Origin: Haloplanus sp. HW8-1
GTDB taxonomy: Archaea > Halobacteriota > Halobacteria > Halobacteriales > Haloferacaceae
Assembly (NCBI RefSeq): GCF_023703795.1
Contig: NZ_CP098518.1
Span: 3,348,001 to 3,412,000, forward strand
DNA length: 64,000 bases
Direction of reading: 5' to 3'
Shown here: piece by piece, positions 6,859 through 44,611 of the stretch
Layout: each line of letters starts with the position of its first letter
Position numbering within the stretch: the stretch's first letter is position 1
Made by a program: the position numbers and the translations under genes
Notes under the pieces: generated by a model
What the model was told of the DNA's origin: nothing
Databases searched by the model: none
The model's input: only the letters and a program-made list of their open reading frames with translations

Positions 6859-6968
6859 TCGCGCGGCGCCGACGGGAACGCCGTGGCTGTCGGCCGTGGG
6901 ACCGCACACGCGCCGACGAACCACGGAGCGGCAGGTTCCTCGCGATACAGGAGCCTCTGTAAGTCATC

Positions 6969-7006
6969 GCACACCTGATCGCACACAGTCCGGCGATCAG
7001 GTGTGC
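6969..7006. repeat. Perfect 14-bp inverted repeat, spacer 10
   Basis: GCACACCTGATCGC at 6969-6982 is matched perfectly by its reverse complement at 6993-7006. It lies in the 254-base gap between the transducer stop and the symporter start. It may form a strong terminator hairpin for the transducer or be an operator for the symporter. No T-run follows. Confidence 0.7.
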
Positions 7007-7041
7007 AAACGGTTCCAAACGCGACTATCGTACGTGATGAT

Positions 7042-7078
7042 CTAGCAGAACCATGCACAGTTTTTGCATGGATGCTAG
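7042..7078. promoter_or_regulatory. Double-armed palindrome before the symporter
   Basis: Outer arms CTAGCA (7042-7047) and TGCTAG (7073-7078) flank inner arms CCATGCA (7051-7057) and TGCATGG (7065-7071), all exact reverse complements. It covers an ATG at 7053 that would otherwise be the longest symporter start, which supports starting the gene at 7113. It is either an operator or a hairpin in the leader RNA. Confidence 0.6.
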
Positions 7079-7112
7079 TTTTCTTGTAGATCGACCGGAA
7101 TCCACCGACGCG

Positions 7113-24148: not shown

Positions 24149-24532
24149 TTCTCGATTTACTGTTTCGATTGTGCTACAGTAAGCACTTTATAATCCAATT
24201 ACAAATAGGTTTTGGTCATATTTGTGGCCAATTGCACATGTCTACAATCGTTAATTAGACATTTATTTGTGTGCCCGTAACTCAGGACGGATCGAGCCGT
24301 TCGGACCGTCGGAATTCCATCCCCACCATGGCGGCCAGAGACTCCCTCAGAGCCTCAAGAGGACCGTGGTGTTTTGAGCCACCGAACTGCCCGGCCTGTC
24401 GTCAGGCCGGGACTGACGTAGACGGTCCGTATCAGTCACGATGACCTGAAAGCCGCCGAATTATGGCTCCTGGCCTTCGCTTGCTGGCACGATATAATGA
24501 ACTAAACACTAGCCGTGCAATCGTCGAAAACG
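24149..24532. promoter_or_regulatory. Divergent promoter region with hairpin
   Basis: AT-rich sequence just after 24148 carries a TATA-like TTATAAAG (minus strand, near 24186-24193) for the binding-protein gene. CCCGGCCTG (24390-24398), a 4-base loop and CAGGCCGGG (24403-24411) form a strong hairpin between the two divergent genes. No gene is seen. Confidence 0.5.
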
Positions 24533-24538
24533 TTATAC
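24533..24538 (+). promoter_or_regulatory. TATA box of the aldehyde dehydrogenase gene
   Basis: TTATAC lies 24-29 bases before the GTG at 24562. This spacing, with no room for a leader, is what decides the start codon. Confidence 0.55.
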
Positions 24539-24561
24539 AGACCGGTTCAGTACGAATTTCT

Positions 24562-26007
24562 GTGCACTATCCACTTTCAATAGGAGGACGACAACGTAGT
24601 GTTGATCGTCGGATCGATGTCGAGAATCCGGCCACTGGTGAGATCGTTGGATCGGTTGGCAGCGGTAACCGAAAAGATGCCGTGCAGGCAATCGAGGCTG
24701 CAAGGGACGTAGCTCGCACGTGGCAACAAAGCGACCCACACGAGCGCGAACGGGCGCTGCACGCCGTGGCCGATCGGATCGAGAACGACGTCGAAGAAAT
24801 AGCCCGTCTGTTGAGCAGGGAGACGGGCAAGTGCCTCGGGACAGCCGAAGACGAAATCAGAGAAACTGTCAGCCAGTTTCGGTTCTATGCGGGAGTCACC
24901 GACAAAATTAGGGGGAGTACGATACCGACGCCGACCGACCGGTTCAATTACACCCGGCGCGCACCATACGGTGTCACCGCACACATCGTGCCCTGGAATT
25001 ATCCCGTGCTTATCGGGTCACGAAGCATCGCTACCGCACTCGCTACGGGGAACACAGTCGTCACGAAACCGCCGGGCAGTGCTCCACTGAGTACGATGTG
25101 GTACGGCGAGTATCTCGTCGACGAGTTCCCCGACGGGGTAGTCAATATTGTTCCCGGTCCCGGGAACGAGGTGGGGGCCGAACTGACGGAGAACGGTGAC
25201 GTAGACGCCATCAGTTTCACCGGATCGAACCGTATCGGTCAACGTGTAATAGAGTCGGCGGCCAAAAACATCGTCCCGGCAGATGTAGAACTCGGGGGCA
25301 AGTCGCCAGCGATCGTTCTCCCCGACGCCGATCCGACAGAGGCTGGCGTCGGAATCGCGACGGGCATTTTTTCGAACACCGGCCAGAACTGCGTCGCCAC
25401 CTCCCGGCTCATCGTTCACGAAGAGATCAAACAAGCGGTGGTAGAAGAAATCGTCAGGCAGGCAGAGTCGATCGAACTTGGACCCGGAACCGATCCGAGT
25501 ACCGGTATGGGACCGGTCATTTCTGCGTCAGCACAGAAGGACATGCAAGCGTACGTTGAGATGGCCAAAGAAAGTGGAGCAACATTACTGACCGGCGGCA
25601 CGATACCCAACGATCCCGACCTCAGCGATGGGCACTTCTTTCAGCCGACCGTGTTCGACGACGTGGAACCGGACGACCGCATCGCAAACGAAGAGATATT
25701 CGGTCCGATACTGTCGGTCATTTCAGTCTCAACGGTCGAAGACGCAATCACTGTCGCCAACGACTCCCGGTACGCTTTGGCAGCGAGCCTCTGGACGGAG
25801 CGTCTAGAGGCAACCACCATAGCCGATCGGCTTGATCACGGAGTGGTCGCGGTAAACTCTTTCCCGGTCACGATGCCACAGAGCCCTTTCGGCGGAAACA
25901 AGGAGTCGGGTATCGGCAGAGAGGGGGGACTGGAGGGTGTCAGGGCTTTCACCACCGTCGATAGTGTCATCGTAGATCACAGTGAGATGGGAACAGGGTA
26001 CCGATGA
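24562..26007 (+). CDS. NAD(P)-dependent aldehyde dehydrogenase
   Basis: A 481-residue ALDH superfamily enzyme. The cofactor and substrate core includes VTAHIVPWNYPVLIGSRSIA and SFTGSNRIGQRVIESAAKNI. The catalytic residues are Glu243 in VELGGKSPAIV and Cys277 in NTGQNCVATSR. FGGNKESGIGREGG near the C terminus is also typical. The frame is open to an ATG at 24463, but the promoter and the family N terminus favour GTG 24562. Within this gene set it most likely oxidises an amino-aldehyde made by the aminotransferase. Betaine-aldehyde-type specificity cannot be excluded. Confidence 0.92.
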   Translation: MHYPLSIGGRQRSVDRRIDVENPATGEIVGSVGSGNRKDAVQAIEAARDVARTWQQSDPHERERALHAVADRIENDVEEIARLLSRETGKCLGTAEDEIRETVSQFRFYAGVTDKIRGSTIPTPTDRFNYTRRAPYGVTAHIVPWNYPVLIGSRSIATALATGNTVVTKPPGSAPLSTMWYGEYLVDEFPDGVVNIVPGPGNEVGAELTENGDVDAISFTGSNRIGQRVIESAAKNIVPADVELGGKSPAIVLPDADPTEAGVGIATGIFSNTGQNCVATSRLIVHEEIKQAVVEEIVRQAESIELGPGTDPSTGMGPVISASAQKDMQAYVEMAKESGATLLTGGTIPNDPDLSDGHFFQPTVFDDVEPDDRIANEEIFGPILSVISVSTVEDAITVANDSRYALAASLWTERLEATTIADRLDHGVVAVNSFPVTMPQSPFGGNKESGIGREGGLEGVRAFTTVDSVIVDHSEMGTGYR

Positions 26008-28310: not shown

Positions 28311-28440
28311 CGTGGGGTGTTGGCCCCACGGACTGGAGATGGCGGAACTCTTCGTCTGGAACGCGTTCCCGAGCGACGATCAGAAGGCACTCCTCGAGGA
28401 GTCAGTCGAACTGATCGTCGAACTGACCGAGATCCGTTGA
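28311..28440 (+). other. Hairpin and orphan 3-prime coding remnant
   Basis: CGTGGGG (28311-28317), a 6-base loop and CCCCACG (28324-28330) form a hairpin. An open frame ending at 28440 then reads ELFVWNAFPSDDQKALLEES and VELIVELTEIR. This amphipathic protein-like segment has no proper start and looks like the tail of a lost gene. The family was not recognised. Confidence 0.35.
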
Positions 28441-29176: not shown

Positions 29177-30532
29177 ATGAGCGATACTGAGACTGAGAGA
29201 GACCTGACCGGAGGCGAGACAGAGAGAGAAATGACCGAAAGCCAAAAGCTCCACGAGGAGGCACATTCAATCTTTCCTGGTGGGGTGTCCCACGACATAC
29301 GGTGTGACTTTGACCCGTATCCGTTCTACGTTACGAAGGCAACGGACTCCCGAGTGTGGGACGTTGACGGAAACGAATACGTTGATTTCTGGAACAACCA
29401 CCACGCCAGTGTTCTCGGTCATTCCTACCCGGATATTGTCGAGGCAGTCAAAGAGCAAGCCGAGAAGGGACTCCACTACGGGTTCACAAACGAAAAAGCA
29501 CTCAGATTAGGCCAAAAAGTCAGGGAATATGTTCCCTCGGTCGAACAGCTACAGTTTTGTGTCACGGGCACCGAGGCGACCATGTACGCAGCGCGGCTCG
29601 CCAGAGCACACACGGGCGGTGATTACATCCTCAAGGCGGAAGGGGGATGGCACGGTGGTAATTCGGAGTTCATGGAAGCTGTGCATGTCCCGTTCGACGA
29701 ACCGACGACGAACGGGCTAGCGCCGGGTGTGGCCGAACATCTCGAGTCATTCCCGGTCAATGATCAAGAGGCCGTTCTAGAATTCCTTGAGGCCCACCGC
29801 GGGAATGTCGCAGCGGTTATTCTTGAGCCGATGCTGGGTGGTGGAGGCGGATTGGAGTGTGACGAGGAATTTCTGCAGTTCCTCGAAGACGCAAGCGAGG
29901 ACTTCGGGTTCGCATTCGTATTGGACGAGGTAGTCACTGGGTTCCGGACGTCGCCAGGTAGCTACCAAGCACGGGTAGGAGTCTCGCCCGACCTCACGAC
30001 GTTGGGGAAGTTCCTCGGTGGAGGGCTAGCTGTCGGGGCAGTAGGGGGTCGTAGTGAGTTCTTTGAGGCGGCTCGACCAGACATTGAAGTCCCCGCCGAG
30101 GAACGTGTGAGTACCGGCGGTGGGACCTTCTCAGCAAATCCATTGATGGCAGCAGCGGGACTTGCCGGACTCGAAGTCGTCGAAACCGAACCCGTCTACG
30201 AGTATATAGAGTCACAGGGCGAACGGATCCGCGAGGGTCTGCGACGCATCTTTGACGACCTGGGTGTTGAATGTCGAGTTCTCGGGATGGGTTCGTTCTT
30301 TATGCCACATTTCAAACCGGAGACGTCCCTGGATACCGTCTACGATATCGAAGCACGGACCGATCGGAGGGCAATAAAGGAGTTCCACAACCGCGTAACT
30401 GATCGTGGGTATGCGATTCTTCCCGGTCACCTGGGTAACGTCTCGTATCAGACATCCGAAAAACAAATAGATGGGTTCCTCCAGACAGCCGAGGCCGTCG
30501 GTCGTGAAATGAAAAGTGAGGGCATCTTGTGA
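29177..30532 (+). CDS. Class III aminotransferase, HemL-like
   Basis: A 451-residue PLP enzyme of the glutamate-1-semialdehyde aminomutase/omega-aminotransferase group. Asp250 in FVLDEVVTGFR contacts PLP nitrogen, and Lys278 in TTLGKFLGGGLAVGAVGG is the Schiff-base lysine. FCVTGTEATMYAARLAR and TGGGTFSANPLMAAAG are typical. Overall it is closer to HemL-like aminotransferases than to PatA. In haem synthesis hemL would not sit here; between an IclR regulator and an acetylpolyamine hydrolase, a role in moving the amino group of an amine or amino acid is more likely. The first 20 residues are an acidic extension. Confidence 0.88.
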   Translation: MSDTETERDLTGGETEREMTESQKLHEEAHSIFPGGVSHDIRCDFDPYPFYVTKATDSRVWDVDGNEYVDFWNNHHASVLGHSYPDIVEAVKEQAEKGLHYGFTNEKALRLGQKVREYVPSVEQLQFCVTGTEATMYAARLARAHTGGDYILKAEGGWHGGNSEFMEAVHVPFDEPTTNGLAPGVAEHLESFPVNDQEAVLEFLEAHRGNVAAVILEPMLGGGGGLECDEEFLQFLEDASEDFGFAFVLDEVVTGFRTSPGSYQARVGVSPDLTTLGKFLGGGLAVGAVGGRSEFFEAARPDIEVPAEERVSTGGGTFSANPLMAAAGLAGLEVVETEPVYEYIESQGERIREGLRRIFDDLGVECRVLGMGSFFMPHFKPETSLDTVYDIEARTDRRAIKEFHNRVTDRGYAILPGHLGNVSYQTSEKQIDGFLQTAEAVGREMKSEGIL

Positions 30533-30711
30533 CCGTCGCTCCCGAATCCCAGCCGCGGTGACCCCGCGAAATCCAACGGTGTAAACAGAGACGACTCGGT
30601 TGCTGGGGAGCATATAATAACAGGCCTGTTGCCTGTCGGAGTGGCCGAAAGCGGCGGATTTTATTATAATCTACCGCAACAAATATAAACAGTGGGGATG
30701 GTGAGCAACGT

Positions 30712-31890
30712 ATGGACGAAAAAACGGAACTGAGCGTCTACTGTGACGATGTCTGTCTGGAGCATACGATACCGGAGGGTGTCTCCTACAGGGGATCTAC
30801 AGACATCATTCCGGTGAATTCACCCCATCCGGACCAACCGGACCGGATAAGAAACATCCGGGGAATCATCCAAAACACGCTCTCAGAGTACGCAGTGTGG
30901 GAAGATATAACGCCCGCAACTACTGAACAGCTCGGTACTGTCCATGACCCCGACTATATCGAATCGGTAGCCAGGTTCTCCGAACAGGGGGGTGGCTGGT
31001 TCACAACTGATGGCACGGGCGGGAACGAAAAGACATACTTGGCAGCAAAACACGCTGCAGGAGGAGCTATTCAGGCAGTACGGCAAGCAATTCAGGGGGA
31101 TGAGACTGCCGTGCCGTATGCTCTCGCTCGTCCATCGGGCCACCACGCACAGCCCTCGCAGGCGGACGGGTCCTGTTTTTTTAATAATGCAGCAGTCGCA
31201 GCGGAGATTGCATTGAACGAAGAATCAGCCGAGAGAGTTGCCATCCTTGACTGGGACGTGCATCACGGTAACGGGACTCAGGAGATTTTTTATGACAGGG
31301 ACGACGTTCTGTGTATCAGCATTCACAACGGACACGGGTCGTGGAACTCTGTGTCTCACCCCCAGACCGGCCGCCCAGCAGAGTGTGGAACCGGTTCGGG
31401 TGAAGGATACAACGTGAACATTCCGGTGCCGTTCGGAACCGGAAATCAGGGTTACGGGTACGTGTTCCACTATCTCGTTGAACCGATCATATCCGAATTT
31501 GACCCGGATATACTCATCGTCAGCAGTGGAACCGATGCGGGGTGTATGGACCCACAGGGGCGGAATCTGGTTACGATATCGGGATTCAACCAGCTCGGAC
31601 GAATCGCAAGACGGTTGGCACGGGAGTATGCCGGGGACAATCTGGCGATCATCCAAGAAGGGGGATACAACCTCAACCAACTCGCATTTGGCACATTGGC
31701 TGTACTTGAAGGGGCACTCGGGATTACTCTGGATTTCAGTGATGAACCCGAAGACTGGCACGACGATCCCTTCATGTTTTACGATCATGAGAACCTTGAT
31801 GGAGTCGTCGAGGCGGTTCATGACGTTGGATCACAGTATGCAAGATATTGGCCACTCGTGTTCTCTTCGAGAGAGACGTCCTGTGGATGA
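30712..31890 (+). CDS. Acetylpolyamine amidohydrolase / class II HDAC-fold deacetylase
   Basis: A 392-residue arginase-fold zinc hydrolase. The paired general-base histidines are His144-His145 in ARPSGHHAQP. The zinc ligands are Asp182 and His184 in LDWDVHHGNGTQEIFY and Asp275 in SSGTDAGCMDPQG. The transition-state tyrosine is Tyr319 in IQEGGYN. All catalytic positions are therefore present. The substrate-loop segment SISIHNGHGSW-like (CISIHNGHGSWNS) is closer to polyamine deacetylases than to histone deacetylases. It would remove acetyl from an imported N-acetyl amine. It is 180 bases after the aminotransferase and precedes the glutamine-synthetase-like gene. Confidence 0.88.
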   Translation: MDEKTELSVYCDDVCLEHTIPEGVSYRGSTDIIPVNSPHPDQPDRIRNIRGIIQNTLSEYAVWEDITPATTEQLGTVHDPDYIESVARFSEQGGGWFTTDGTGGNEKTYLAAKHAAGGAIQAVRQAIQGDETAVPYALARPSGHHAQPSQADGSCFFNNAAVAAEIALNEESAERVAILDWDVHHGNGTQEIFYDRDDVLCISIHNGHGSWNSVSHPQTGRPAECGTGSGEGYNVNIPVPFGTGNQGYGYVFHYLVEPIISEFDPDILIVSSGTDAGCMDPQGRNLVTISGFNQLGRIARRLAREYAGDNLAIIQEGGYNLNQLAFGTLAVLEGALGITLDFSDEPEDWHDDPFMFYDHENLDGVVEAVHDVGSQYARYWPLVFSSRETSCG

Positions 31891-32127
31891 CGGCCCCCGG
31901 TACTCCGGTCAGGAGTGTGAAATCGGGCGTATGAATGGTCCTGATTATGATGCTGTGTTCGGGCCGGACTGGCACGACTCGGCCCGAAAATATCAAAAAC
32001 CACTGGACAGGACCTGATCCGCGATGGTACTGTGGCTGTAATTTTTGCGGGTCAAGACCGGGTTTGCCCGGTGGAAATACTGCGTCTAATACAAAAATAT
32101 AAATATGTATATCGAGACTGTTCGTCC

Positions 32128-33489
32128 ATGGGCGACGATGAAAAACCTCCGATAGTGGAAGGGGAGAATGGAATATTACTACAATTTCACGATCTGAGTG
32201 GATTTCCACGAGGTATGTATATCAATGAAGAAGAGTGGGAACAGGCACAGACAGACGGTTTCAGTTTCGGACCTATGGTCACGGAATGGGTGGAGAATTA
32301 CAATACCAGGGGCGTCGTCGAACCGATGCAATTCACCGCAAACGAGGGCTATATGAACGCGATAGCCGACCCGGACACGCTGGTTTCGGTCCCGTGGCGG
32401 GAAGGGAACTGCCGGAAGGCGATATGTGATCTGGAGAATACAAACGGTTCCGATTTCGAACTGTGTTCCCGATCAAAATTGGCGAAAGCAGTCGACAGTT
32501 TGGCGGAACTCGGTTACGAAGCGAAGGTCGGATCGGAGATTGAATTCAATCTGCTGACCGAGTTTGAAACTGATCGATTACGGAGGGAAGGAACCGATTA
32601 CATCGAAGAAGCAGCCACTTCCGATCTGGGTGCTGTCTATCACTTGCGGCCCTTAGAGGAGCGAAGCAAGTACTTGAGTGAACTGAACGCCGTAATGAAA
32701 CAGATGGGGTATAAAATAGAGGGGCTCCACAAGGAAAGTTCGCCAGGGATGTTCGAAGCACTTCTTCGATATACGGACGCTGTCCACCAAGCTGACGCAG
32801 TAGCCACATTCAGATTGTCAGCCCAGGCGATCGGGCGACGTCACGGCCTCACTCCGATTTTTATGCCGATGCCGATGTCGGATTACGAAGGCAACAGCCA
32901 GCACTATCATATCAGCCTCTGGCAACACGGTGAGAACGCGTTCTACGATCCGGACGGATCCGAAGACGTAGCGGATGTGGCATACCACTTCATCGGTGGC
33001 GTTCTGGAACACGCAAAGGGGATTACAGTTCTATGTGCGCCGACAGTCAATTCCTACAAGAGACTCCAACCCGGGATGTGGGCACCTGTCAACATAAATT
33101 ACGGACACGATAACGCATCCACCATGATCCGTATTCCCACACCCAGAGAGGAGGGAACCAGGGTGGAAATCCGAATCCCGGACAACTCTGCGAACCCGTA
33201 CCTATCCCTTGCCGGAATACTCGTAGCCGGTGCTGACGGAATCAAAAACCGGATCGATCCGGGCGAACCGTCCGAGGAAGACGTGTACGAAGCAGAGTCG
33301 GATGACTACCGGCAACTCCCGGACTCGCTCGGTGAAGCAGTGGACGCACTGAACGAAGATACGTTCCTGTGTGACTTCCTGGGTGAAGAATTGATCAACC
33401 AATTTTCTCGACTTAAGAGGGACGAAGCGAGGCGTTACAACCAAGCAGTTACCGATTGGGACGTCCGGGAGTATATAAATAGAATGTAA
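32128..33489 (+). CDS. Glutamine-synthetase-like ligase (gamma-glutamyl-amine synthetase candidate)
   Basis: A 453-residue member of the glutamine synthetase superfamily. KVGSEIEFNLLTEF carries the metal-binding Glu pair, FMPMPMSDYEGNSQHYHISL replaces the usual GSGxHxHxS loop, and NSYKRLQPGMWAP and RVEIRIPDNSANPYLSLAG are conserved. The altered metal/glutamate loop (NSQHYH) points away from ammonia-assimilating GS and towards the branch that couples glutamate to amines. A TATA-like AAATATAAAT at 32095-32104 sits 24-33 bases before the ATG at 32128; a GTG at 32032 would include the promoter. The amine used is unknown. Confidence 0.85.
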   Translation: MGDDEKPPIVEGENGILLQFHDLSGFPRGMYINEEEWEQAQTDGFSFGPMVTEWVENYNTRGVVEPMQFTANEGYMNAIADPDTLVSVPWREGNCRKAICDLENTNGSDFELCSRSKLAKAVDSLAELGYEAKVGSEIEFNLLTEFETDRLRREGTDYIEEAATSDLGAVYHLRPLEERSKYLSELNAVMKQMGYKIEGLHKESSPGMFEALLRYTDAVHQADAVATFRLSAQAIGRRHGLTPIFMPMPMSDYEGNSQHYHISLWQHGENAFYDPDGSEDVADVAYHFIGGVLEHAKGITVLCAPTVNSYKRLQPGMWAPVNINYGHDNASTMIRIPTPREEGTRVEIRIPDNSANPYLSLAGILVAGADGIKNRIDPGEPSEEDVYEAESDDYRQLPDSLGEAVDALNEDTFLCDFLGEELINQFSRLKRDEARRYNQAVTDWDVREYINRM

Positions 33490-34393
33490 GACCCCGTCGG
33501 AAAAACATCGATCGATAGCGTGACTGTACTCACCTATAATAAATGTCAATAGTTGTTATTAGCTTAATTCCGTCTATGTATGCAATCTACACGAATGAGC
33601 CATGATTTTATTGAATGTAATCAAGATCAGCAGCATCCGCTCCCGAAGGGCCTCTCCGAGTGGGTTGAAGAAGACAGCTTCGAACGGTTCCTTTCCGCAG
33701 TACTTCCAAGGTTTAGCTTCAACAAGTGATCTTCCATTGTCGAAGTCATCTATGACGATATGATTCAAGAGACGAGACGTGCTCAGGCGGAAGGAATACA
33801 ATTTCTCAACAATACTGGACAGCATTCACAACACGGACAGACGGCTCTACATGGGCAAAGTACGAACGGACGTGGCAGAATGCAGCTCGGTACTTCCGGG
33901 GCGCAGTGAGCCCAGGAAGTCCCAACACGGTCTCCGACATCGCTGACAAGATGCACGTCGATACCGAACGGCTTTAACGATTCGTCCGAGAAAACCCGTG
34001 GGACGATGAAAGTGTTGAGCGAAAGCTTCGGGAAACCGTTCCCGAAGCGATCCAAGGTCGGTACTTCACGAGCAGCGTAATCAATCAGAGGGATTCGTTG
34101 GATTGACCACGATAAAGTGTCTGGACCCGGATGTGTTCACCCTACCCGATCCAGACGGTGATCTTTCGGCGGCGGACGTAACTGTACTTCTGCGGTTTAA
34201 TTTGAACGTGTAGCACGGTTCCCACTCACGGCAGTCGCCTCTATCGGTTATGAGCCGCCTGGGTAAATGAGGTACGCGACAGAGAAGCAAATCCGCTTGA
34301 GATCGGCGAGGAAGCCCACGACCAGACCGGCCGGATCGTCGACATCAATCAGACTGTCGACGACCTGTTTATTGACCTCGACTGACGGCAGGA
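33490..34393 (+). pseudogene. Mosaic of transposase remnants
   Basis: At 33595 an ATG opens a 44-codon frame containing LPKGLSEWVEEDSFERFLSA, which resembles the N terminus of IS1182-type transposases. From about 33810 another frame reads YERTWQNAARYFRGAVSPGS, then IADKMHVDTERL, a TAA, and RFVRENPWDDESVERKLRET, resembling the N-terminal part of IS701-type transposases. Near 34300 a third frame ends EAHDQTGRIVDINQTVDDLF, unrecognised. All are broken, and no intact gene lies in this 0.9 kb. Confidence 0.45.
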
Positions 34394-35437
34394 CTACTCC
34401 GCATGGTGGACCCCGGTTCCCGGCCGCTCGAAGCCAGTGAGATCGATTGCTCCCTCGGGCATCGGCACCCCAGCAAAGCGATCCTCGGCGAGCAACAGCG
34501 CCCCGTCGAGGTCGGCGTAATCGAGCAACGGCGCCAGGTGTGCACCCGCCGAAAGCAGGGCGGTTGTGCCGAGCATACAGCCCAGCATGACCGCCAGTCC
34601 CTCGGCGCGGGCGGCGTGGATCATCCGGACTGTCTCCCGGATGCCGCCAGCCTTCGTGAGTTTAATCGTGGCGATGTCTGCGATCTCGCCCACCTGAGGG
34701 ACGTCCGCTAGGCGGACACAGGACTCGTCGGCAGCGACCGGCAGGGCTCCCTGTTCACGGACGAGGGCCATCCCGTCGGGATCGTCGGCTGGGACGGGTT
34801 GTTCGACGAACTCGATGCCGTACTCGTCAAGCCACTCGGTGTTCTCAATGGCCTCGCGGGGTGTCCAGGCTTCGTTGGCGTCAACGCGGATGGTCGCCTC
34901 GGGGGCTTCCTCCCGGATCGCGGAGACGACCTCTCTATCGCGGTCCGTGCCAAGTTTGACCTTCAGGATGGGGTAGCCCGCCGCGACAGCCTCGGCGGTC
35001 TTTTCGCGCATCCGCTCGGTGTCGTCGAGACCGATCGTGAAGGAAGTTGTGACAGACTGTTCGGGATCGAGCCCCAGGTAGCGGTACAGGGGCAAGCCAA
35101 GTTGAGTCGCCACCAGGTCGTGCAGGGCGACGTCGACGGCACAGAGGGCTGCGCCGTTGTCGCCGATGGCCGCGCGGCCCTCGCGCTCGATTTGCTGTAG
35201 TGCGTGGGGGTCGCCGACCGATTCGACGACTGCGAGCAGGTCCGGCAGGATCGCCTCGACCGTTGCGATGGTCTCGGCGTAGCGCGTCGATGGGGCAGCG
35301 GCACCGACGCCCACCCGACCCTGGTCGTCTTCGATGCGGACGAGGACGTTCTCGGCGCTGGATTGCGTGCCCCGCGAGATGGTGAAGTCGTGTTCGAGCG
35401 GTAACGAGACGCGCTCGAACTCGCAGGTCAGGCTCAC
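34394..35437 (-). CDS. dgcA: Enolase-superfamily dipeptide epimerase / N-acetyl-glutamate racemase (DgcA-like)
   Basis: A 347-residue enolase-superfamily enzyme of the Ala-Glu-epimerase group. The catalytic KxK pair is Lys159/Lys161 in ILKVKLGTD. The metal ligands are Asp186 (RVDANEAW), Glu212 (EFVEQPV) and Asp237 (AADESC), and the second base is Lys262 (IKLTKAGG), so the active site is complete. The GTG start overlaps the stop of the DUF1611 gene (GTGA). The frame is open far upstream, but that part is a shadow of the neighbour. Pairs of DUF1611 and this enzyme have been described as DgcN-DgcA in D-glutamate catabolism, including in haloarchaea; assignment here rests on that pairing. Confidence 0.85.
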   Translation of the reverse strand: MSLTCEFERVSLPLEHDFTISRGTQSSAENVLVRIEDDQGRVGVGAAAPSTRYAETIATVEAILPDLLAVVESVGDPHALQQIEREGRAAIGDNGAALCAVDVALHDLVATQLGLPLYRYLGLDPEQSVTTSFTIGLDDTERMREKTAEAVAAGYPILKVKLGTDRDREVVSAIREEAPEATIRVDANEAWTPREAIENTEWLDEYGIEFVEQPVPADDPDGMALVREQGALPVAADESCVRLADVPQVGEIADIATIKLTKAGGIRETVRMIHAARAEGLAVMLGCMLGTTALLSAGAHLAPLLDYADLDGALLLAEDRFAGVPMPEGAIDLTGFERPGTGVHHAE

Positions 35438-36444
35438 AGCGCGTCCAGCACCTCGTCGGCGTCGAACCGCACCGGATCGGTCGCAGGCGCGTCGATTGCG
35501 GCCCCGTACTTCTCGACCGCTTCCCGGGCCTGGTCGTCGCCCTCGATGAATCGGGTATTGAGTGCACCCGCGACGATGTCGGTCTCGTGAAGTGGCGCGG
35601 TCAAGCGCTCGTAGAGGTCGACGTACTCGGTGGGGTGAGGGATGGGGAACGACTCGTACTTGCGGATGTTCTCGCGGCCGGCCTCGTGACACAGCACCAG
35701 CGAATCGGGCATCGACCCGTGGAGGATGGAAAGCGTCACCCCCGAGTACGCGGGGTGGGTGATTGATCCCTGTCCCTCGACGAAGAGGTAGTCGTGGTCG
35801 GCGCGCTCCTCGACCATCCGCTCGACGGCGCCGGCGGTGAAGTCGCTGATGGTGCGGTCGACGACGGTGCCGCTCCCCTCGACCATCACGCCCGTCTGGC
35901 CCGTCGGGACCGCGGCGGCGTCCCAGCCACGCTCCCGGGCCGCCTCGAGTAGCGACCACGTCGTCGTCATCTTGCCAGTTGAGCAGTCCGTTCCCACCGT
36001 GAGGACGATCTCGGCGTCAACCTCGCGGGCAGTCCCGTCGGCGACGCCCAGATTGGCTGGTGGCTTGCGGACGTCCCACAGCTCGACGCCGTGCTCGTCG
36101 GCCAGCCGGGAGAGCTGTTCGTCTTCGGAGAGAAAATAGTGGAGGCCCGCGACGACGTCGGCGCCCTGTTCGATGGCACCGTTGATGTCGGGACGCCAGC
36201 TCTCGTCGAGGCCGCCGCCGATGGGTGCAATGCCGATTATCAGCCGGTCGATATCGCCCGGGACGTCCTCGATGCCGGCGACGACCGGCGAATCCTGGAC
36301 ATCCGGGAGGTAGTCGTGAACCCTGTTTCCAGCGGTGTCACGGTCAAGCACCGCTGCGACATCCTGGTCCCCGTACCTGAGGACTCCGGCCGCCGTCTTA
36401 GCGTCGTCTGGGAACTTTTCATGTGCAAGGATCGCTACGCGCAT
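35434..36444 (-). CDS. dgcN: DUF1611 family protein (DgcN-like N-acetyltransferase)
   Basis: A 336-residue DUF1611 protein. The N-terminal Rossmann-like part has IGIAPIGGGLDESWRPDING. The P-loop GTDCSTGKMTT is at residues 151-161, followed by PTGQTGVMVEG and FVEGQGSITHPAYSGVTLSI. In the DgcN-DgcA scheme this protein N-acetylates D-glutamate before racemisation and deacetylation. Other family members are annotated only as NAD-dependent epimerase-like, so the activity is inferred. It is the first gene of the pair, with tandem 9-bp repeats in its promoter. The pair is more GC-rich than its neighbours, suggesting a separate origin within the island. Confidence 0.82.
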   Translation of the reverse strand: MRVAILAHEKFPDDAKTAAGVLRYGDQDVAAVLDRDTAGNRVHDYLPDVQDSPVVAGIEDVPGDIDRLIIGIAPIGGGLDESWRPDINGAIEQGADVVAGLHYFLSEDEQLSRLADEHGVELWDVRKPPANLGVADGTAREVDAEIVLTVGTDCSTGKMTTTWSLLEAARERGWDAAAVPTGQTGVMVEGSGTVVDRTISDFTAGAVERMVEERADHDYLFVEGQGSITHPAYSGVTLSILHGSMPDSLVLCHEAGRENIRKYESFPIPHPTEYVDLYERLTAPLHETDIVAGALNTRFIEGDDQAREAVEKYGAAIDAPATDPVRFDADEVLDAL

Positions 36445-36465
36445 ATCCGTTTTACTTCAGCAACT

Positions 36466-36486
36466 GTCTTAATTGTGGTCTTAATT
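36466..36486 (-). promoter_or_regulatory. Tandem GTCTTAATT repeats before dgcN
   Basis: GTCTTAATT at 36466-36474 and 36478-36486, direct and 12 bases apart, centred 32 bases before the ATG. They cover the TATA position, so a protein bound here would compete with the basal factors. Confidence 0.5.
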
Positions 36487-36721
36487 ACCGTCGTGGGCTG
36501 CATCGAAGATTAAATAGCATCTCAGTGTCTTCACCTCTCACTTTCGAGACCCGGTTGAGCTAGAGTGCATATTTTGTTGACACCGATTCTTTAGAGCCGT
36601 GGCCAAGATGAAATAATATCACGAGACACACATTCCACGCCTAGTTCCAGATAGCAATATAAGTTCGGCAATTTCGAAGACTGAAATAAGTAAATCGGCA
36701 AAAAGAGGCCGTTTGAAGGAC

Positions 36722-38345
36722 TTACTGTGCTTTATCGACCCCGTAGATCTCCACATCGAGATCAAGCAACTCAAGAACGTGTGACGGAATATCAACATTT
36801 TCTGGAAGCACACGCTCGCCGTCGACACGACTGACGAGCATGTTCTCGAACCGCTGGAGGACACGGCGTCCGGTGGACCGATAGGTACTCGGCCCATCGG
36901 ACAGTTCCATTGGTTCATCTCCGTCCATGAGAGCGAGTCGCGCACGCCGTTCGATCAACGAATACACCAACAAAGCCATGACCAGCACGTATCCTAGCGC
37001 TTCGATCCGCTATTCATTCTTCAGGTAGACGGCTCCAACACGCTTTGGATCTTTCACCACCGGAAAGCACTGTTCGACGGTGATCTGCTGTTTGTACTCT
37101 TCAAGCACACGCTCATCCGGCCACTCTTGTTTATTTTCGAGGCTCGTAACCAGCACGTAGCAACTCTCTCGTTGTTTGTAAGTGGAGATCGCCGCCGCGT
37201 CCCGCTGGACGTCGGCGGCGATTTTGTACTCTGTCTCGTAGGGATCCCACTCCTTCGGCGGCCGACCAGGTTTGTCACGACTCTTTTTTTGCTCGGTCTC
37301 AACGACTTCTGCCTCAATCTCGAAACACTGCTCTTGATGATCCGTGAGCCACGTCTCACGCTCCTGTTTTGCGTCTCGCTCACACGCGAAGACGCGGTCT
37401 GAAAGTTCTTCAGCCGCGTCTTTGAGTTGTTCTTCGGTGGTATCTAACTCCTTGTCGATGCGCTTCTCGCTCCGTCCATCGATTGTGGACGGTTTCACGA
37501 CAACGCAGCGCATCTCTTGATCGGAGATCGTCTCGGTGAACGAACGGATTTCGTGAGAGACAGCGTCCTCCTGTTCTGCGACAGGGCCGATGTCACGCCA
37601 GTCGCCATTGTCCCACGCGCGGTCGATGAGTTCATCGACCGCCGCGTACATGCCGGGAAGGCGGGAGATGAGAGGCAGTTCCTGCTCGCTTGCTCGGGCG
37701 AGGTTCTCAGCAGTGACAGCCTTGCTGTCTGCGACATAGACGATCGATTCGTCAGTGGGCAGGCACTGACGAATCTCAGAGATAACTTCTTTGTTCCAGG
37801 TCGTGTCAGCACCGTTTCCGTCAAAAATGTCGTCGACAACAGGAACGCCACGATGTGTCACACCAAGGCCGATGTTGAACAGTTTGAGTTGGCGGTTTCC
37901 GTCGCGGCTGTATCCTTTCGCTATATTTAGATTTTCTTGCGTTCCGTCCTGTTCGTACTCACCATGGACCGACTTGGAAGTTGCGTCGGCGTGGACAACG
38001 CCGATGTCCACGCCTTCTGTCGTGATTGCTTTAGCAATCTCAGAGTTGAGAACTTGGCGTGGTCAAGCATCCGAAATTTTGTCCAGTGCCCACCCAAATC
38101 GCTGATCATAGAGGTCCTCCGGAGAGATATCGTCACCAAAGAGGTTCCCCGGATTTTTGTTTTCAAAAAAGTCGGAGAGCCGATACATCGGCTCTCCTTC
38201 GGTCAGGAAATTCATCACGAGACCAGCAGTCAGCAACCCCGGAGAGATATCTGCCTGCTCTTGATCCCACTCAACACTCTCATCAATTACTTCGATAATC
38301 CCACTCCTGACAGATCGCGTGAATAACCGGCAATGGACCGGGTGC
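36722..38345 (-). pseudogene. IS1634/IS4-type transposase with several lesions
   Basis: The longest open piece (37010-38011) reads VVHADATSKSVHGEYEQDGT, then VYVADSKAVTAENLARASEQ and QQITVEQCFPVVKDPKRVGA, the DDE core of the ISH-type IS1634 group. It stops at TAG 37010-37012, then continues in frame as RIEALGYVLVMALLVYSLIE to 36722. Upstream, a TGA after FGWALDKISDA and a shift near 38305 separate it from NFAPGPLPVIHAICQEWDYR. At least three lesions make it long dead. Confidence 0.8.
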
Positions 38346-38742
38346 GAAGTTCTCTAGCCTAGTCACCAATCAAAGGTTTGTGAACCAGGAGTTAGAAATT
38401 CACGGTTGCGTGGAAAAAAGCAGCTGGTGACGAACTCGGGTCTCGAAAGTGAGCTCGAACAGTAAGCGGCTCACATACCACTGGACCACTCGTGATTTTG
38501 TACATGACATCAGGGGCTTGGATGTACAGATTCGGAAATCGGGGTCTGTCGTCGGGCAACCGTACGGGTGAGTACAACCTGGTCTGGCCTGCCCTCGCTA
38601 GATACCTATCATAGTACTTACATTATTAACAGTTGTCGTGCAAGATGGAGCCCGCATATCTTGCACGGGGTAGATCGGAGTTAGCAGGATGGCAATCGTT
38701 CGATACAGGCCGTTCACAGTGTCAGTGGTTAGTTTGGGACGC
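38346..38742. other. No gene recognised
   Basis: A 397-base gap between the dead transposase and the formamidase-like gene. TCTTGCAC and GTGCAAGA near 38640-38665 form a short palindromic pair. I see no gene; it may hold the terminator of the formamidase-like gene. Confidence 0.45.
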
Positions 38743-41094
38743 CTACGGGTTCGATTCTGTGGGGAGAGACCCATCACTCATGAATTCTCTGAGAACGTTT
38801 TCCGTAATCTGTGACACGCTGTTGTCCGTTCCATCGACCAACAAGGATTCGATCCACGCCATAGACCCGACCGAGAAGACCCCTCCATCTTCGGGAGTCC
38901 GATAGTAGACGATATCGGCACGAACTTCAGGATCGGTTCGACCGTCACGGTAGGGAACGTTGCACTGTAACTCCTCTATGACACGGTGACAGTTCTTTGA
39001 ATGGCCAATCGAGGCGGCGAGCACGTACGCGTCTTCGGGTGAGCCCAGCGCGGTGTCGTATCGGTCGACTTCACCGCTAGCTGGACCGGTGGGCTCGCCC
39101 CCGCCATCCCTCTCGCTAGTGTCAATCGTATCACTGTCGATACCCTGGAATATGAACGAAACCTCGCGCCGATAACTATCTGGAAGGCGATAATAGGGCC
39201 GTCCATTGATCTCGTACTGGCCACTGAACCCAACACCGACTAACTTCTGTGGCGCCCATCCCCGTTTCGTCCACAGTCCGCCTTTTTTTCCCGTGAATTC
39301 GTGATAGCGTTCCCCCGGTTCCGGTATCCACGCCTGTTCCCCGACCTCCCCACGACGCACTTCGATGATGGGTTTTTTTGAATGATAGCCTGTGACCCAG
39401 TAGAATCCGTTCCCCCCGAGATACATGAATCGACCACCCTGTCTCTGGTACTGTTCTATAGATGTCATTATTCTGCCAGTCGGGTACTCGGGATGGTGAC
39501 CACTGACCACCACCCTGTACGGGTTCAATATTTCCTCTCCGTGTTTGTGGATGTCGTCGTCGGTAACCACGTCGTACTCGAAACGTTTCGTTTCGAGCCA
39601 CTCCAGCAGATACAAATCGACGTTGATACCCAGTTGAGAGACTGTCTTGCTGGGACCGGAATCGCTTTCGAACGACGGTGCGATGTTGATCAACGGTCGA
39701 CAGCGAGACGAAAACATTGATCCGCTACCGTCGACATGTGTGTCATAAACAGACAGGCCGTACTCCCGGTGGGAACTCAAAAATAGATCATCCTCGTTCA
39801 GTACGGGCACCATCCCCGAAAACGTCTCGCCTCCGAAGTCTTGGTTCGCGTCTACGGTTTGGAAGTGGTCATTCGCGTATGCAAGGTACGTGTTGGTAGG
39901 CAGGTACACTGCGATGGGTGCAGTTGCTTCTCCGAGACGGGATTTGACAAAAAACTGCACGAAATACTCGTCGTGTGGCGTCATCAGACGGGCGGCGTAG
40001 GCGCCGCTGTCGAAGTCCTCCGGGACCTGAAACGTGAAGTCACTCTCCCAATCAGCGTCGGTCATATCGTCTTCGTGAAACCGGATCGCGCCGTACTCTT
40101 CGGGTGCCGACGTAAAGTCGACAGACTCCCCTGTCCAGTTGTGGCCCGGTACTGCGCGTGCTGGCAGATTGACTGCATATCCGTCGAGACCGTGGGGTCC
40201 TGTGTCTACGACTGTTTCTACCGAAGTGAACCCGTCTTCAGTAACGTTGGCAGTAAAGTCCCAGACTGCTACCGTCGATTCCGTAGAGCGAGCGGGGACT
40301 TCGGGATTGGGGGTCGCTCCATCAAACGCGTCTATCGCCTCGTCCAGCACACGTGGGGATTCTATTTTCCCCGTGAAATGCCCGTCAACGCTGGGCGTGT
40401 CTACACCGCCCTCATGGACGTAGCCAGCCATGACGAGGGGCGTCTCAGAACAGGCAACTGTCCCAGTTGGAATGGATGTTTGCGTCCGATGATTCCGCTT
40501 TTGGTCGGGAGTTACTGACTCGTGTCCCGTAATCAATTGCTCGCACGACAGCGTCAACCGACCCCCGTCCGTATCGACGGACATCGACACGAAATACCAG
40601 TCGTCTTCGGACAGAGGGGCGTCAACGCGAGCGCGCTCAATACGCCCGTCTTCGAGCGACACCTGTGCGACCAAGCAACCCTCCCCGTTGACGAACAGAC
40701 CGTATCCTCTCTCCGTCGTGCTGTTCCACTTTGTCAACAGTCCGTCTTTTCCCGCCCCGAGGTGTGTTGGACAAACCAGTACCTGTAGGGTGAACGTTTC
40801 CTTGAACTGCAATGCGGGATCATGTGGAACGACGACGTGAGAGCCGGATTCGATAGTTCGAACGGTCCCTTCGTACATTCCACTCACGTGGGTCTCGGTG
40901 ACGAGTGTCTCGGAGCGAGGGTCGGCGACACTTTGGTTGGTGCGGGTGAGTTCCACGATATCGGCACGGAATCTGTCCGGCTCACAACTCACTCTGAAAG
41001 GAAGTGTTTCACCCGGGGCGACACTCCACTCGTCGCAGTACCCGACGACTTCCCGCTCGGAGAACGTTGACTCTAGTTCAGTGGCTTCTGTCAT
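38743..41094 (-). CDS. N,N-dimethylformamidase-like large subunit
   Basis: A 783-residue protein resembling the large (about 760-residue) subunit of bacterial dimethylformamidase. An N-terminal beta region includes a LamG-like segment (about residues 65-215, with FTLQVLVCPTHLGAGKDGLL and DDWYFVSMSVDTDGG). The C-terminal hydrolase part contains YLPTNTYLAYANDHFQTVD, LYLLEWLETKRFEYDVVTDD, VVVSGHHPEYPT and GGRFMYLGGNGFYWVTGYH. In the studied enzyme, tyrosines and a glutamate bind mononuclear iron; such residues are plentiful here, but I do not assign positions. It overlaps the small-subunit gene by 17 bases. It likely hydrolyses an N-substituted amide; the natural substrate is not known. Confidence 0.82.
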   Translation of the reverse strand: MTEATELESTFSEREVVGYCDEWSVAPGETLPFRVSCEPDRFRADIVELTRTNQSVADPRSETLVTETHVSGMYEGTVRTIESGSHVVVPHDPALQFKETFTLQVLVCPTHLGAGKDGLLTKWNSTTERGYGLFVNGEGCLVAQVSLEDGRIERARVDAPLSEDDWYFVSMSVDTDGGRLTLSCEQLITGHESVTPDQKRNHRTQTSIPTGTVACSETPLVMAGYVHEGGVDTPSVDGHFTGKIESPRVLDEAIDAFDGATPNPEVPARSTESTVAVWDFTANVTEDGFTSVETVVDTGPHGLDGYAVNLPARAVPGHNWTGESVDFTSAPEEYGAIRFHEDDMTDADWESDFTFQVPEDFDSGAYAARLMTPHDEYFVQFFVKSRLGEATAPIAVYLPTNTYLAYANDHFQTVDANQDFGGETFSGMVPVLNEDDLFLSSHREYGLSVYDTHVDGSGSMFSSRCRPLINIAPSFESDSGPSKTVSQLGINVDLYLLEWLETKRFEYDVVTDDDIHKHGEEILNPYRVVVSGHHPEYPTGRIMTSIEQYQRQGGRFMYLGGNGFYWVTGYHSKKPIIEVRRGEVGEQAWIPEPGERYHEFTGKKGGLWTKRGWAPQKLVGVGFSGQYEINGRPYYRLPDSYRREVSFIFQGIDSDTIDTSERDGGGEPTGPASGEVDRYDTALGSPEDAYVLAASIGHSKNCHRVIEELQCNVPYRDGRTDPEVRADIVYYRTPEDGGVFSVGSMAWIESLLVDGTDNSVSQITENVLREFMSDGSLPTESNP

Positions 41095-41479
41095 ACTCGT
41101 TTTCGTCCGCGAACGTGTCTTTTAGCTGCTCGATTCGCTTGAGGAACACCGCGTGTTCAGCCTCTTCCCAGGAACCGTACCGTTCTTCCTCGAGAAGTTC
41201 AGGTCGGTCACCGCGAACGCCGCTCAATCTGCCAAGTGTGAACTGCCCTGGAGGGGTTGCGACGATCACCAGTCGTCCCTCGACTGGTTGCCGCCGGAGG
41301 AACGTCAAGATGCGATGAAGTTCGGTAGAGTGGTCTCCGAACGGGTCCTCTCTGTGCTCTTTGATCAACTCCTCAGAGAGTTTTGGCAGGATATCTTCTC
41401 GGGCGATTCGCTCATAGGCTTCGTTTTTTATTTTACGTTCCGCCTGAGTACCTTCGTAACTGTAATTTGTTGTATCCAT
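41078..41479 (-). CDS. N,N-dimethylformamidase-like small subunit
   Basis: A 133-residue basic/acidic helical protein with LRRQPVEGRLVIVATPPGQF and TLGRLSGVRGDRPELLEEER. The size and position, directly before and overlapping the large subunit, match the 132-residue light subunit of bacterial dimethylformamidase. The overlap of 17 bases implies fixed stoichiometry. The promoter lies in the AT-rich 113-base gap after the permease gene, with TATA-like sequences on the minus strand. Confidence 0.8.
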   Translation of the reverse strand: MDTTNYSYEGTQAERKIKNEAYERIAREDILPKLSEELIKEHREDPFGDHSTELHRILTFLRRQPVEGRLVIVATPPGQFTLGRLSGVRGDRPELLEEERYGSWEEAEHAVFLKRIEQLKDTFADENEYDRSH

Positions 41480-41592: not shown

Positions 41593-43311
41593 TTAATCTT
41601 GCTTTTTATCCCTTACTTCTAGTATAAATACAATAACAATGAATGGTATTATAGAATAAATGATCATAGCTGTGAACGCCGAAACGACTGGGTCGTACCC
41701 GAACGCAATCTGTCCTCGTATCCAGGTCGTGACCGTGTCTGTGGGCCCAGACAGGTAGGCGGATATGTAGTAGTTATTCCAAGACAGGATGAATGCAAAA
41801 AGAGCACCCGAGATGAGTCCATTAGAGACGAGGGGGAGGGTAATCTCCTTGTATTGCGTATAAAACCCGGCACCAAGGTCCTTTGCTGCTTCTTCGACGT
41901 GTGGGTCAATTGCGATGGCTTTCAGAACTACGACAAACATGACGATGGGTGACATCCAGGTCGTGTGACCGAGGATGGTAGCGAGAATACCTCGTTGTAT
42001 TCCCAACAAGTCGAACCAAAGTGCCATCGCAAGGCCGGTCAGCAGCAAGGGGAAAAATATGGGAAGCAGGGCACCAATTTTGAAGGCTTCCCGCCCTCTG
42101 AACTGGTAGCGAGCGTATCCGATTCCAGCGGCACCGCCGATGAGAGTGGACAGTATCGTTACCGGGATGGCGATCTTGAGAGAGGTACCAACGGCGTCGT
42201 AGACAGCCCCCGATGTCACGGCTGCCATGTACGATTCGAGAGTGAATTTGTAGGGGAATGTGAACGCAACCCCATCGTAAAATGACGCAGTGATGACACC
42301 AAGTATCGGCAGGTTCAGAAAGACCACAGTCAGGAGTACGTATCCATACCAGACTGCTGATTCAGCACGCGAAGTGTGCTGATCCGTGGTTTCAGTTGCA
42401 CCGCCAGAGCGGACGGCAATCTCTTCAAGACTCACGATGCGTAGAATCACCACACCCGCCACGAGTGAAACTAGGAGCAAGAGTATCGCTTTGGCGGATC
42501 CCATCGGCCAGTCCTGAACGAATCCGAACGAACGCTTGATGTCGGTCGCGACCGTTGCTATGGCGTTTCCTCCCAGCATGGACGCCTCTATTTCCGCGCC
42601 CGTGGAGAGGATGAATACGAACAGTGTCCCGATTATTACCCCCGGTTTGGACTGTGGAAGTATGATCCGGCGAAACGTGACCAATTTGCCCGCTCCCAGA
42701 TCACGCGCAGCCTCGATCACTGAGGGATTTATATTGGCAATTGATAAATATATTGGGAACAACATGAACGGCAGATATATGTAGGTTGTGCCCAGAATCG
42801 TAGCCCCCTCGGTGTACAGGAGTGATGGCATTGATCCCGAAAAGAGCGTGCTATAGAGGGTCGAAATTATACCGTCTTTGACGAGGAACACCGTCCATCC
42901 GTACACACGCATCACGACGCTGGTCAACAAAGGCATGATCAACAGCATCAGAATGGGTCGACGGAACCGAGTGATTTTCCGTCCGAGTGCATATGCTGCG
43001 GGATAACAGACGAGCAGAGAAATACCGGTAGTGATCACTCCAATCCGAAAGCTGTTGAAGAGAAACTCCTTGTACAGCTTGCCTTGGAATATCTCCACGT
43101 AGTTGCTTACCGTCCAATCTGCCAATGTGAATGTGTTACTTGGCTGTAGGGAGTACAGAGCCAAAATAGTCATCGAACCGACAAATACGGTCGAGATCAA
43201 AAGCACATATGATGATAGCAACAGATGATGAGTTTCCGTTTTGTCTCTGACTACGTCGTAGACCCTGCTTTTCTCGGATACTTTCCTGTATAGGGATTCG
43301 ATCGTGCTCAT
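41593..43311 (-). CDS. Fused PotB-PotC-like ABC permease
   Basis: A 572-residue protein with about 12 transmembrane helices in two homologous halves, joined near residues 300-320. Each half has its EAA loop for the ATPase: EAARDLGAGKLVTFRRIILP in the first and EEAAKDLGAGFYTQYKEITL in the second. In most bacteria the spermidine/putrescine permeases are two genes; here they are one polypeptide, as in some iron (FbpB-type) transporters. It begins 3 bases after the ATPase stop. With the binding protein at 22.9 kb it completes an importer. Confidence 0.9.
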   Translation of the reverse strand: MSTIESLYRKVSEKSRVYDVVRDKTETHHLLLSSYVLLISTVFVGSMTILALYSLQPSNTFTLADWTVSNYVEIFQGKLYKEFLFNSFRIGVITTGISLLVCYPAAYALGRKITRFRRPILMLLIMPLLTSVVMRVYGWTVFLVKDGIISTLYSTLFSGSMPSLLYTEGATILGTTYIYLPFMLFPIYLSIANINPSVIEAARDLGAGKLVTFRRIILPQSKPGVIIGTLFVFILSTGAEIEASMLGGNAIATVATDIKRSFGFVQDWPMGSAKAILLLLVSLVAGVVILRIVSLEEIAVRSGGATETTDQHTSRAESAVWYGYVLLTVVFLNLPILGVITASFYDGVAFTFPYKFTLESYMAAVTSGAVYDAVGTSLKIAIPVTILSTLIGGAAGIGYARYQFRGREAFKIGALLPIFFPLLLTGLAMALWFDLLGIQRGILATILGHTTWMSPIVMFVVVLKAIAIDPHVEEAAKDLGAGFYTQYKEITLPLVSNGLISGALFAFILSWNNYYISAYLSGPTDTVTTWIRGQIAFGYDPVVSAFTAMIIYSIIPFIVIVFILEVRDKKQD

Positions 43312-43314
43312 ATA

Positions 43315-44379
43315 TTACTCCGTTGTCAGGATAGCCGACTCAGGATCCCACTGAATATAACACTCATCTCCCTCGGACAAGCCCCGCTCGTGGACGCGAT
43401 CATATGGCATCTCTGAGACGTATCTGTTGGCCCCGTCCAGGGACGTCGTCTCCACGATTGCGTTATTTGATTTGAACATTATGCTATCTATTTCGACAGC
43501 GAGGGACGTCGCCTCTGTTGGGTCGGGTCGTACCTCACACTGGGTATGTCGTACAACCATATGGGTGAACTCGCTGGCAAGATCACTTCGAGCAGACAGT
43601 TTAATTTCGGTATCCAGGCTGTCGCTAATTACCTCGATGTGTCCGTTCGTTCTGCTTTTGACGCTGATGGGGAAGATGTTGGCATCGCCCATGAAGTCAG
43701 CAACAAAGCGCGTTTCTGGCTGATTGTAGATCTCGCTCGGAGTTCCTTGTTCGACTATAGTCCCCTGATTCAGAACGATAATACGATCGCTCAAAAGCAT
43801 CGCGGCCTCGAGGGAGTGAGTGACGTATACGAAGGTGCGTCCCAATTTGGTTTGGAGCCTGGTGAGTTCACGCTGGAGTTCCTTACGAAGGACATAATCG
43901 AGAGAGGCCAGAGGTTCGTCCAGGAGCAAGATGTCCGGTTCGTACGCGAGAGAGCGTGCAAGCGCCACTCGCTGTCGTTCCCCACCACTCAACTCAGCCG
44001 GGTTTTTATCGGCATACTCTTCTGGATCTAATTGGACTCTTCGTAGCCACTTGTCCACCTGCTGGGCATCCCGATCTTGGAGCCGAATGGGAAACAACAC
44101 GTTTTCCCGGACGGTCAGGTGAGGAAACAGCGCTAGAGATTGAAAGACCTGACTGGTTGGCCGTTGTTGTGGAGACGTGTCAGTGATATCTTCCGACCGC
44201 AGTTCTATCGTGCCGTCTGTTGGAGACAAATGACCAGAGAGAATCCGGAGAATCGTCGTTTTGCCCGACCCGCTAGGCCCGACTAGCGAAACGAACTCCC
44301 CTTGGTCTATGTCGAAAGAGACGTCACTAACCGCTTCTGTCTTTCCATACTGCTTGGTTAGGTTCCTTATTTGTAGCAT
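43315..44379 (-). CDS. PotA-like ABC transporter ATPase
   Basis: A 354-residue ABC ATPase of the polyamine/iron/sulfate import class. Walker A is GPSGSGKTT (residues 34-42), then QVFQSLALFPHLTVRENVLF (Q loop), signature AELSGGERQRVALARSLAYE, Walker B ILLLDEPLASLD and the switch His in VTHSLEAAMLLSD. A TOBE-like regulatory domain fills residues 235-354. The ATG at 44379 begins MLQIRNLTKQYG; an open extension to 44502 covers the promoter (TTTTATAC near 44416). It is the first gene of the operon with the fused permease. Confidence 0.92.
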   Translation of the reverse strand: MLQIRNLTKQYGKTEAVSDVSFDIDQGEFVSLVGPSGSGKTTILRILSGHLSPTDGTIELRSEDITDTSPQQRPTSQVFQSLALFPHLTVRENVLFPIRLQDRDAQQVDKWLRRVQLDPEEYADKNPAELSGGERQRVALARSLAYEPDILLLDEPLASLDYVLRKELQRELTRLQTKLGRTFVYVTHSLEAAMLLSDRIIVLNQGTIVEQGTPSEIYNQPETRFVADFMGDANIFPISVKSRTNGHIEVISDSLDTEIKLSARSDLASEFTHMVVRHTQCEVRPDPTEATSLAVEIDSIMFKSNNAIVETTSLDGANRYVSEMPYDRVHERGLSEGDECYIQWDPESAILTTE

Positions 44380-44611
44380 TACTTGTGTAGTGAAGTATTG
44401 AACGCAACGAGTGTATAAAATTTTCCCTCCATGGTTTATACATATGGATTGCACAGTCCGAGAGTGAGTCAGAAAAGCAATTCGGAGCTGCCGAGAGCGC
44501 ACCTGTTTGCTATCGGTCAGCGGTCAACGGATCGGTGCGAGTAGCCGGCGTCTGCCGCCCGATCAAAGACAGTGTACAAAAAACTGCTCGGCGTTGTTTA
44601 GACGCCAGCGT
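44380..44611. other. Gap between ATPase promoter and IS remnant
   Basis: This 232-base gap holds the importer promoter (TATA-like TTTTATAC on the minus strand near 44416) and, further right, GC-rich sequence that probably includes the end of the IS5 element. No gene is seen. Confidence 0.45.

Follow-up and report, generated by a model that had tools for sequence, protein, structure and literature searches.

An intact operon of the haloarchaeal dgcN-dgcA type is located in a low-GC island of Haloplanus sp. HW8-1, probably having entered the genome by horizontal transfer of the two genes as one cassette. With the resident dgcA reduced to a pseudogene, no other close pair of this type in the genome is complete. 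The foreign cassette beside a broken resident dgcA is the finding that comparative analysis adds to an earlier sequence-only reading, in which the pair was joined to a nearby HDAC-fold gene as a single D-glutamate island. That plausible picture is set apart here from what the comparisons support. Throughout, the window refers to the whole stretch of 64,000 nucleotides that was analysed.

Identity and distribution of the gene pair

Both genes of the pair are on the minus strand. The dgcN-like gene (35434..36444) encodes a 336 aa protein composed of a DUF1611_N domain and a DUF1611 P-loop domain with an intact GTDCSTGKMTT motif. Its matches to Pfam PF07755 (248.3 bits) and PF17396 (102 bits) are above the gathering cut-offs of 25 and 22.6, respectively. 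The dgcA-like gene (34394..35437) encodes a 347 aa racemase/epimerase of the enolase superfamily that matches PF13378 and PF02746. At the junction, CTGTGAGCC, the GTG start of dgcA overlaps the end of dgcN such that GTGA is shared with the TGA stop. The residues K159/K161, D186, E212, D237, K259/K262 and the D309-L-D311 motif are all present, and those up to K262 are invariant in an alignment of nine sequences. From the Pfam matches, a reading of the junction and the residue alignment, the sequence-only reading was correct in placing a DUF1611 gene and an enolase-family gene at these positions, overlapping by GTGA and complete in their motifs.

The interpretation in the sequence-only reading was supported in part, namely in the identity of the two genes as dgcN and dgcA. 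The best NCBIfam models were DgcN for the first protein (NF041892, 251.5 bits) and DgcA for the second (NF042940, 252.6 bits), yet neither reached its equivalog cut-off (480 and 400 bits, respectively). Orthologues from other haloarchaea also fall below these cut-offs, with scores of 247.6–257.4 bits for three DgcN proteins and 247.6–272.5 bits for four DgcA proteins. The model matches support the island pair as the haloarchaeal version of DgcN-DgcA, an identification that is right in kind. Since all of the tested haloarchaeal pairs are under the NCBI naming cut-offs, annotation there rests on inference.

The closest solved structures by sequence were 2obn, 7xrj and 2g0t for the DUF1611 protein, and 3iji, 3jva, 4gfi and 1jpd for the racemase. 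Among solved structures, the racemase is best matched by enolases of the dipeptide epimerase type (3iji, 3jva, 1jpd), and it retains the D-L-D motif, so the pair may be considered in terms of a dipeptide-related module. The epimerase would then have L-Ala-D/L-Glu-type compounds or other N-acyl-glutamates as substrates, and the DUF1611 protein, which has a P-loop motif in a domain that Pfam names a P-loop, would carry out another ATP- or acyl-dependent step. This alternative is unlikely given that the NCBIfam L-Ala-D/L-Glu epimerase models scored 183.7 and 154.5 bits on the island DgcA, placing the DgcA model ahead by ~69 bits or more, and that the pairing of dgcN with dgcA is strictly conserved. 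DgcN has been described as a GNAT-type enzyme, which sits oddly with the P-loop domain assigned by Pfam. A structure model calculated from four DgcN sequences with the question of a P-loop or GNAT fold in mind was poor (pLDDT = 58.6, pTM = 0.48).

A D-glutamate pathway of DgcN and DgcA was reportedly described by Yu et al. in 2023, in a paper said to name haloarchaea in its title; the pathway reportedly runs from D-glutamate to N-acetyl-D-glutamate, then to N-acetyl-L-glutamate and finally to L-glutamate. With the same substrate and the same direction, and judging from the known family, the island DgcN would N-acetylate D-glutamate. DgcA would then racemize the D form of N-acetyl-glutamate to N-acetyl-L-glutamate, passing a proton between two lysines of the active site while D186/E212/D237 hold the metal. 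A passage of PMC12363236 cites the D-glutamate pathway paper of Yu et al. 2023, and the DgcN-DgcA D-glutamate pathway is named in a passage of PMC10845958.

An orthologue-grade DgcN-like match (best E ≤ 8.3e-108) was found in 103 of 116 Halobacteria genomes, this genome included, and the remaining 13 had no match at E 1e-30. A racemase gene was directly downstream of dgcN in all 29 other loci that were retrieved (L014–L042). The two genes also cluster in all of the 20 larger neighbourhoods compared, one of which is the resident locus, where the racemase is broken. By eye, the conserved neighbours in these 20 loci include a VLRF1-like protein, GatD, ThrS and others; no M20, HDAC-family or other deacetylase was recognised among them. 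From this sampling, the dgcN-dgcA pair appears near-universal in Halobacteria and ordinary as a system, so its presence in the window is unsurprising.

The resident locus and the source of the island copy

The resident dgcN-dgcA locus (L043, C1:1.94 Mb) is the vertical copy of the genus and has the same gene order as the island pair. Here, dgcN is undamaged (349 aa, 66% identical to island DgcN), and its product may be able to act together with the island DgcA. In contrast, the resident dgcA has been wrecked by frameshifting and deletion, as judged in one assembly against the protein of a genome of the same genus (G080). Relative to that protein, the resident sequence follows aa 1–117, continues in another frame with stops, and resumes at aa 310–343. 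Residues ~250–310 are absent, and the missing part holds a K-L-M-K stretch that aligns with K259/K262 of the island enzyme. The 11 other genomes of the genus each have dgcA at full length, with 57–60% identity to the island dgcA, and in none of them was a second, island-type copy found.

Two further DUF1611 loci in this genome are possibly amino-acid modules of a like kind. One (L083) is a more distant DUF1611-epimerase pair whose racemase is 36% identical to island DgcA and has an L-Ala-D/L-Glu epimerase model as its best NCBIfam match. At the other (L084, C1:1.376 Mb), a DUF1611 paralogue is divergent from an M20 ArgE/DapE-like peptidase (L012), the two genes occupying 5467–6552 and 6679–7737 of the locus. 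With the resident dgcA a pseudogene, the comparisons indicate that no close pair of this type other than the one in the island is complete.

A close relative of the island pair was identified in a Haloarculaceae MAG contig, JAHENO010000099.1 (L085), with identities of 90% for DgcN and 88% for DgcA. At the DNA level, the homology (34396..36474, minus strand, 86.7% identity) ends almost exactly at the two genes and their proximal promoter box. The only other nearby gene that L085 and the window have in common is a diverged aminotransferase, and the 16.8 kb of L085 contained no further island gene out of 11 tested. In both the DgcN and DgcA trees (49 and 48 rows; duplicates, copies of the island locus, and rows that were short or had internal stops were excluded), the island sequences form a fully supported group with L085, separate from the genes of the genus itself. 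The composition of the pair is also its own: its GC content is 66.5% with a GC3 of 0.80–0.83, compared to 0.55–0.73 for 11 other island genes and 0.885–0.92 for three core genes. On these comparisons, the island pair is not the genus's own copy; the two genes were probably transferred together, as a cassette, from a source near a Haloarculaceae lineage. Any order of acquisition and loss read from the two loci would be conjectural.

An IS1634-family insertion sequence (36537..38453, minus strand) with 17-nt perfect terminal inverted repeats and a transposase at 37010–38011 ends 93 bases upstream of dgcN, and is present in a single copy in the genome. On the 3' side of dgcA is decayed debris (33801..34103, plus strand), partly read by eye, with a weak similarity to IS701 transposases (14.6 bits, E 0.016) that is far under the cut-off of 150. 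Genes of the TnpB type with a Cas12f1-like TNB domain are found at 9763–10962 and 46659–47936, near both edges of the low-GC island. A simple composite element bounded by the two was rejected as they are only 33% identical.

The flanking IS1634 element and transposase debris, together with an oddly duplicated promoter box, would suit a redundant passenger, transferred and unexpressed, with the resident dgcN and other enzymes doing the work. That account is improbable: both island frames are intact with all of their motifs, the resident dgcA is dead, and the substitutions between the island and L085 fall mostly at third codon positions (193, versus 75 at first plus second positions), a pattern that fits purifying selection. 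What the comparisons support is a near-core haloarchaeal gene pair that travels as a two-gene unit, here beside a broken resident gene. A species with a lost dgcA and a foreign, intact copy offers a natural test of the need for the haloarchaeal pair.

The repeated box upstream of dgcN

The exact sequence GTCTTAATT occurs at 36466–36474 and 36478–36486 and nowhere else in the window. On the minus (coding) strand, the proximal box reads AATTAAGAC and spans positions −30 to −22 relative to the dgcN ATG, a TATA-like position. The distal copy, also on the minus strand, is 12 bases further upstream and just outside of the stretch that is homologous to L085. L085 carries AATTAAGCC at the proximal position, where other dgcN genes, by eye, often show TTAAG or TTTAAG. 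By the general pattern of haloarchaeal promoters, the simplest reading of the proximal box is a TATA element serving a leaderless or short-leader transcript. Transcription would most likely proceed from this AATTAAG TATA-like element, and the distal copy may be a local duplication or an insertion scar.

The tandem boxes described in the sequence-only reading do exist at the promoter. As a shared operator, they did not hold up: the tandem is absent upstream of all 33 other distinct dgcN regions, and two of these (L029 and L036) contain one box match each with two mismatches. Allowing up to three mismatches, the 21-base tandem pattern was found once in the whole genome, as was a reversed control pattern. 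An operator of a regulon was rejected from this single genomic occurrence and the 33 upstream regions. Exact 9-mers repeated within 20 bases occur at 13 places in the window, two of them in the 19–47.5 kb interval, and the GTCTTAATT tandem is therefore uncommon but not extraordinary. At 28405–28425, another 9-mer, GTCGAACTG, is repeated at the same 12-base spacing between genes for an IclR-type and a PadR-type regulator.

Neighbouring genes, the deacetylase and known systems

The HDAC-fold deacylase gene (30712..31890, plus strand; PF00850, 260 bits) is 2.5 kb from the pair on the opposite strand. The sequence-only reading suggested that it could deacetylate N-acetyl-L-glutamate, such that the pair and the HDAC operon would form one D-glutamate pathway. 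Apart from their proximity in one island, this assignment draws on the ability of Zn-dependent deacylase folds to take acetyl groups off amines (PMC11532494). The distributions argue strongly against it. While some HDAC-fold match was found in all 116 genomes, the clade of the island HDAC (defined by >350 bits) is limited to 15, as opposed to 103 for dgcN, and neither dgcN nor dgcA was found within 16 kb of a clade member at any of 17 other loci from 14 genomes. The pair also differs from the HDAC side of the island in composition and in strand. A D-glutamate partner linking the two halves of the island was rejected on distribution and neighbourhoods; the link of the HDAC to the pair is very probably wrong, and a single pathway built on it is highly improbable.

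The neighbourhoods of the clade point elsewhere. Matches to a PotB/C-like (polyamine-type) permease were present in 6 of the 17 loci and ABC ATPase matches, some of them weak, in 10. Together with the Pot-type permease, ATPase and solute-binding protein of the island itself, these neighbours make an amide or acetylated-amine role for the island HDAC more likely. Among solved structures, HDAC6, HDAH, and dimethoate and propanil hydrolases are some of its closest relatives. In PMC11532494, HdaH and the dimethoate and propanil enzymes are placed in cluster 1, and acetylpolyamine activity among the expressed enzymes is reported only for the one from cluster 4, so a polyamine substrate for the island HDAC would be conjectural as well.

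An N-acetyl-L-glutamate deacetylase need not be linked to dgcN-dgcA. The genome contains 12 M20-peptidase matches, and the eight of these that were examined include several ArgE/DapE-like proteins and one LysW-lysine hydrolase. None of the 12 genes is linked to the island pair. From these matches, a separate N-acetyl-glutamate deacetylase elsewhere in the genome is plausible; by the terms of the sequence-only reading, such an enzyme would speak against the HDAC link if it were co-regulated with the pair. L-glutamate would most likely be released by an enzyme of this M20 (ArgE/DapE) kind.

If anything joins the halves of the island, the hint comes from an aminotransferase rather than from the HDAC. 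This class III (GSA-type) gene (29177..30532, plus strand), identified from Pfam and NCBIfam, is a possible partner of the pair. A distance of 3.9 kb separates it from the pair, which is on the opposite strand, and it precedes the HDAC and a glutamine-synthetase-like gene. The L085 counterpart, a class III aminotransferase with 60% identity to it, ends 43 bases upstream of dgcN. An aminotransferase and DgcN-DgcA might thus make up a three-gene module for amino-group recycling, intact in L085 and split here, with the foreign pair retained to supply the necessary, near-universal DgcA function in place of the failed resident dgcA. Such a module is doubtful, however. Few genomes have the aminotransferase (4 of 391 at E 1e-90); dgcN is absent from two of the genomes that have it (G001 and G007) and ~324 kb away in a third (G129), so the link comes down to L085 and the window. 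The difference in divergence (60% versus 90%) argues against a joint transfer of the aminotransferase and the pair. Among ORFs of at least 90 aa, the aminotransferase neighbourhoods of G001, G007 and G129 have no other gene in common with the island or L085.

In G001 (L124, 8617–9609), diamine metabolism is hinted at by an overlap between the gene for the rare aminotransferase and one encoding a 2,4-diaminopentanoate dehydrogenase C-terminal domain. Genes for a solute-binding protein, an aldehyde dehydrogenase, the aminotransferase, the HDAC-fold and glutamine-synthetase-like proteins, a Pot-type permease and an ATPase are distributed over 22856–24148, 24463–26007, 29177–33489 and 41593–44502 of the window. 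In its gene content, the island looks like one for amine or polyamine uptake and breakdown. The minus strand further encodes a large protein with an N,N-dimethylformamidase beta-subunit C-terminal domain (PF20254; 38743–41094) and, overlapping its start, a gene of 133 aa (41078–41479); the two bring to mind the large and the small subunit of DMFase. A literature search found no paper devoted to a DMFase-type protein in haloarchaea.

Several observations count against an acquired, intact dgcN-dgcA operon as the best explanation of the island pair: the scores under the equivalog cut-offs, the D-L-D motif, the unlinked deacetylase, the intact resident dgcN, the L083 pair, and the reliance on lesions in a single assembly. 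Compared to the DgcN-DgcA pathway of Yu et al. 2023, the island pair is alike in its adjacent DUF1611 and enolase-family genes and in its best NCBIfam matches. It differs in scoring, along with the other haloarchaeal pairs tested, well below the NCBI cut-offs, and in that no deacetylase was seen adjoining it. With the dipeptide epimerases for L-Ala-D/L-Glu and other substrates (3iji, 3jva, 1jpd), the island DgcA has in common the fold, the KxK motif, the metal ligands and the D-L-D motif; it differs in being paired with a DUF1611 protein and in scoring lower on their models than on that of DgcA. The L085 pair differs from the island pair in having the class III aminotransferase directly upstream of dgcN, high-GC surroundings and a single box, and is otherwise alike, with the same overlap arrangement and the same proximal AATTAAG box.
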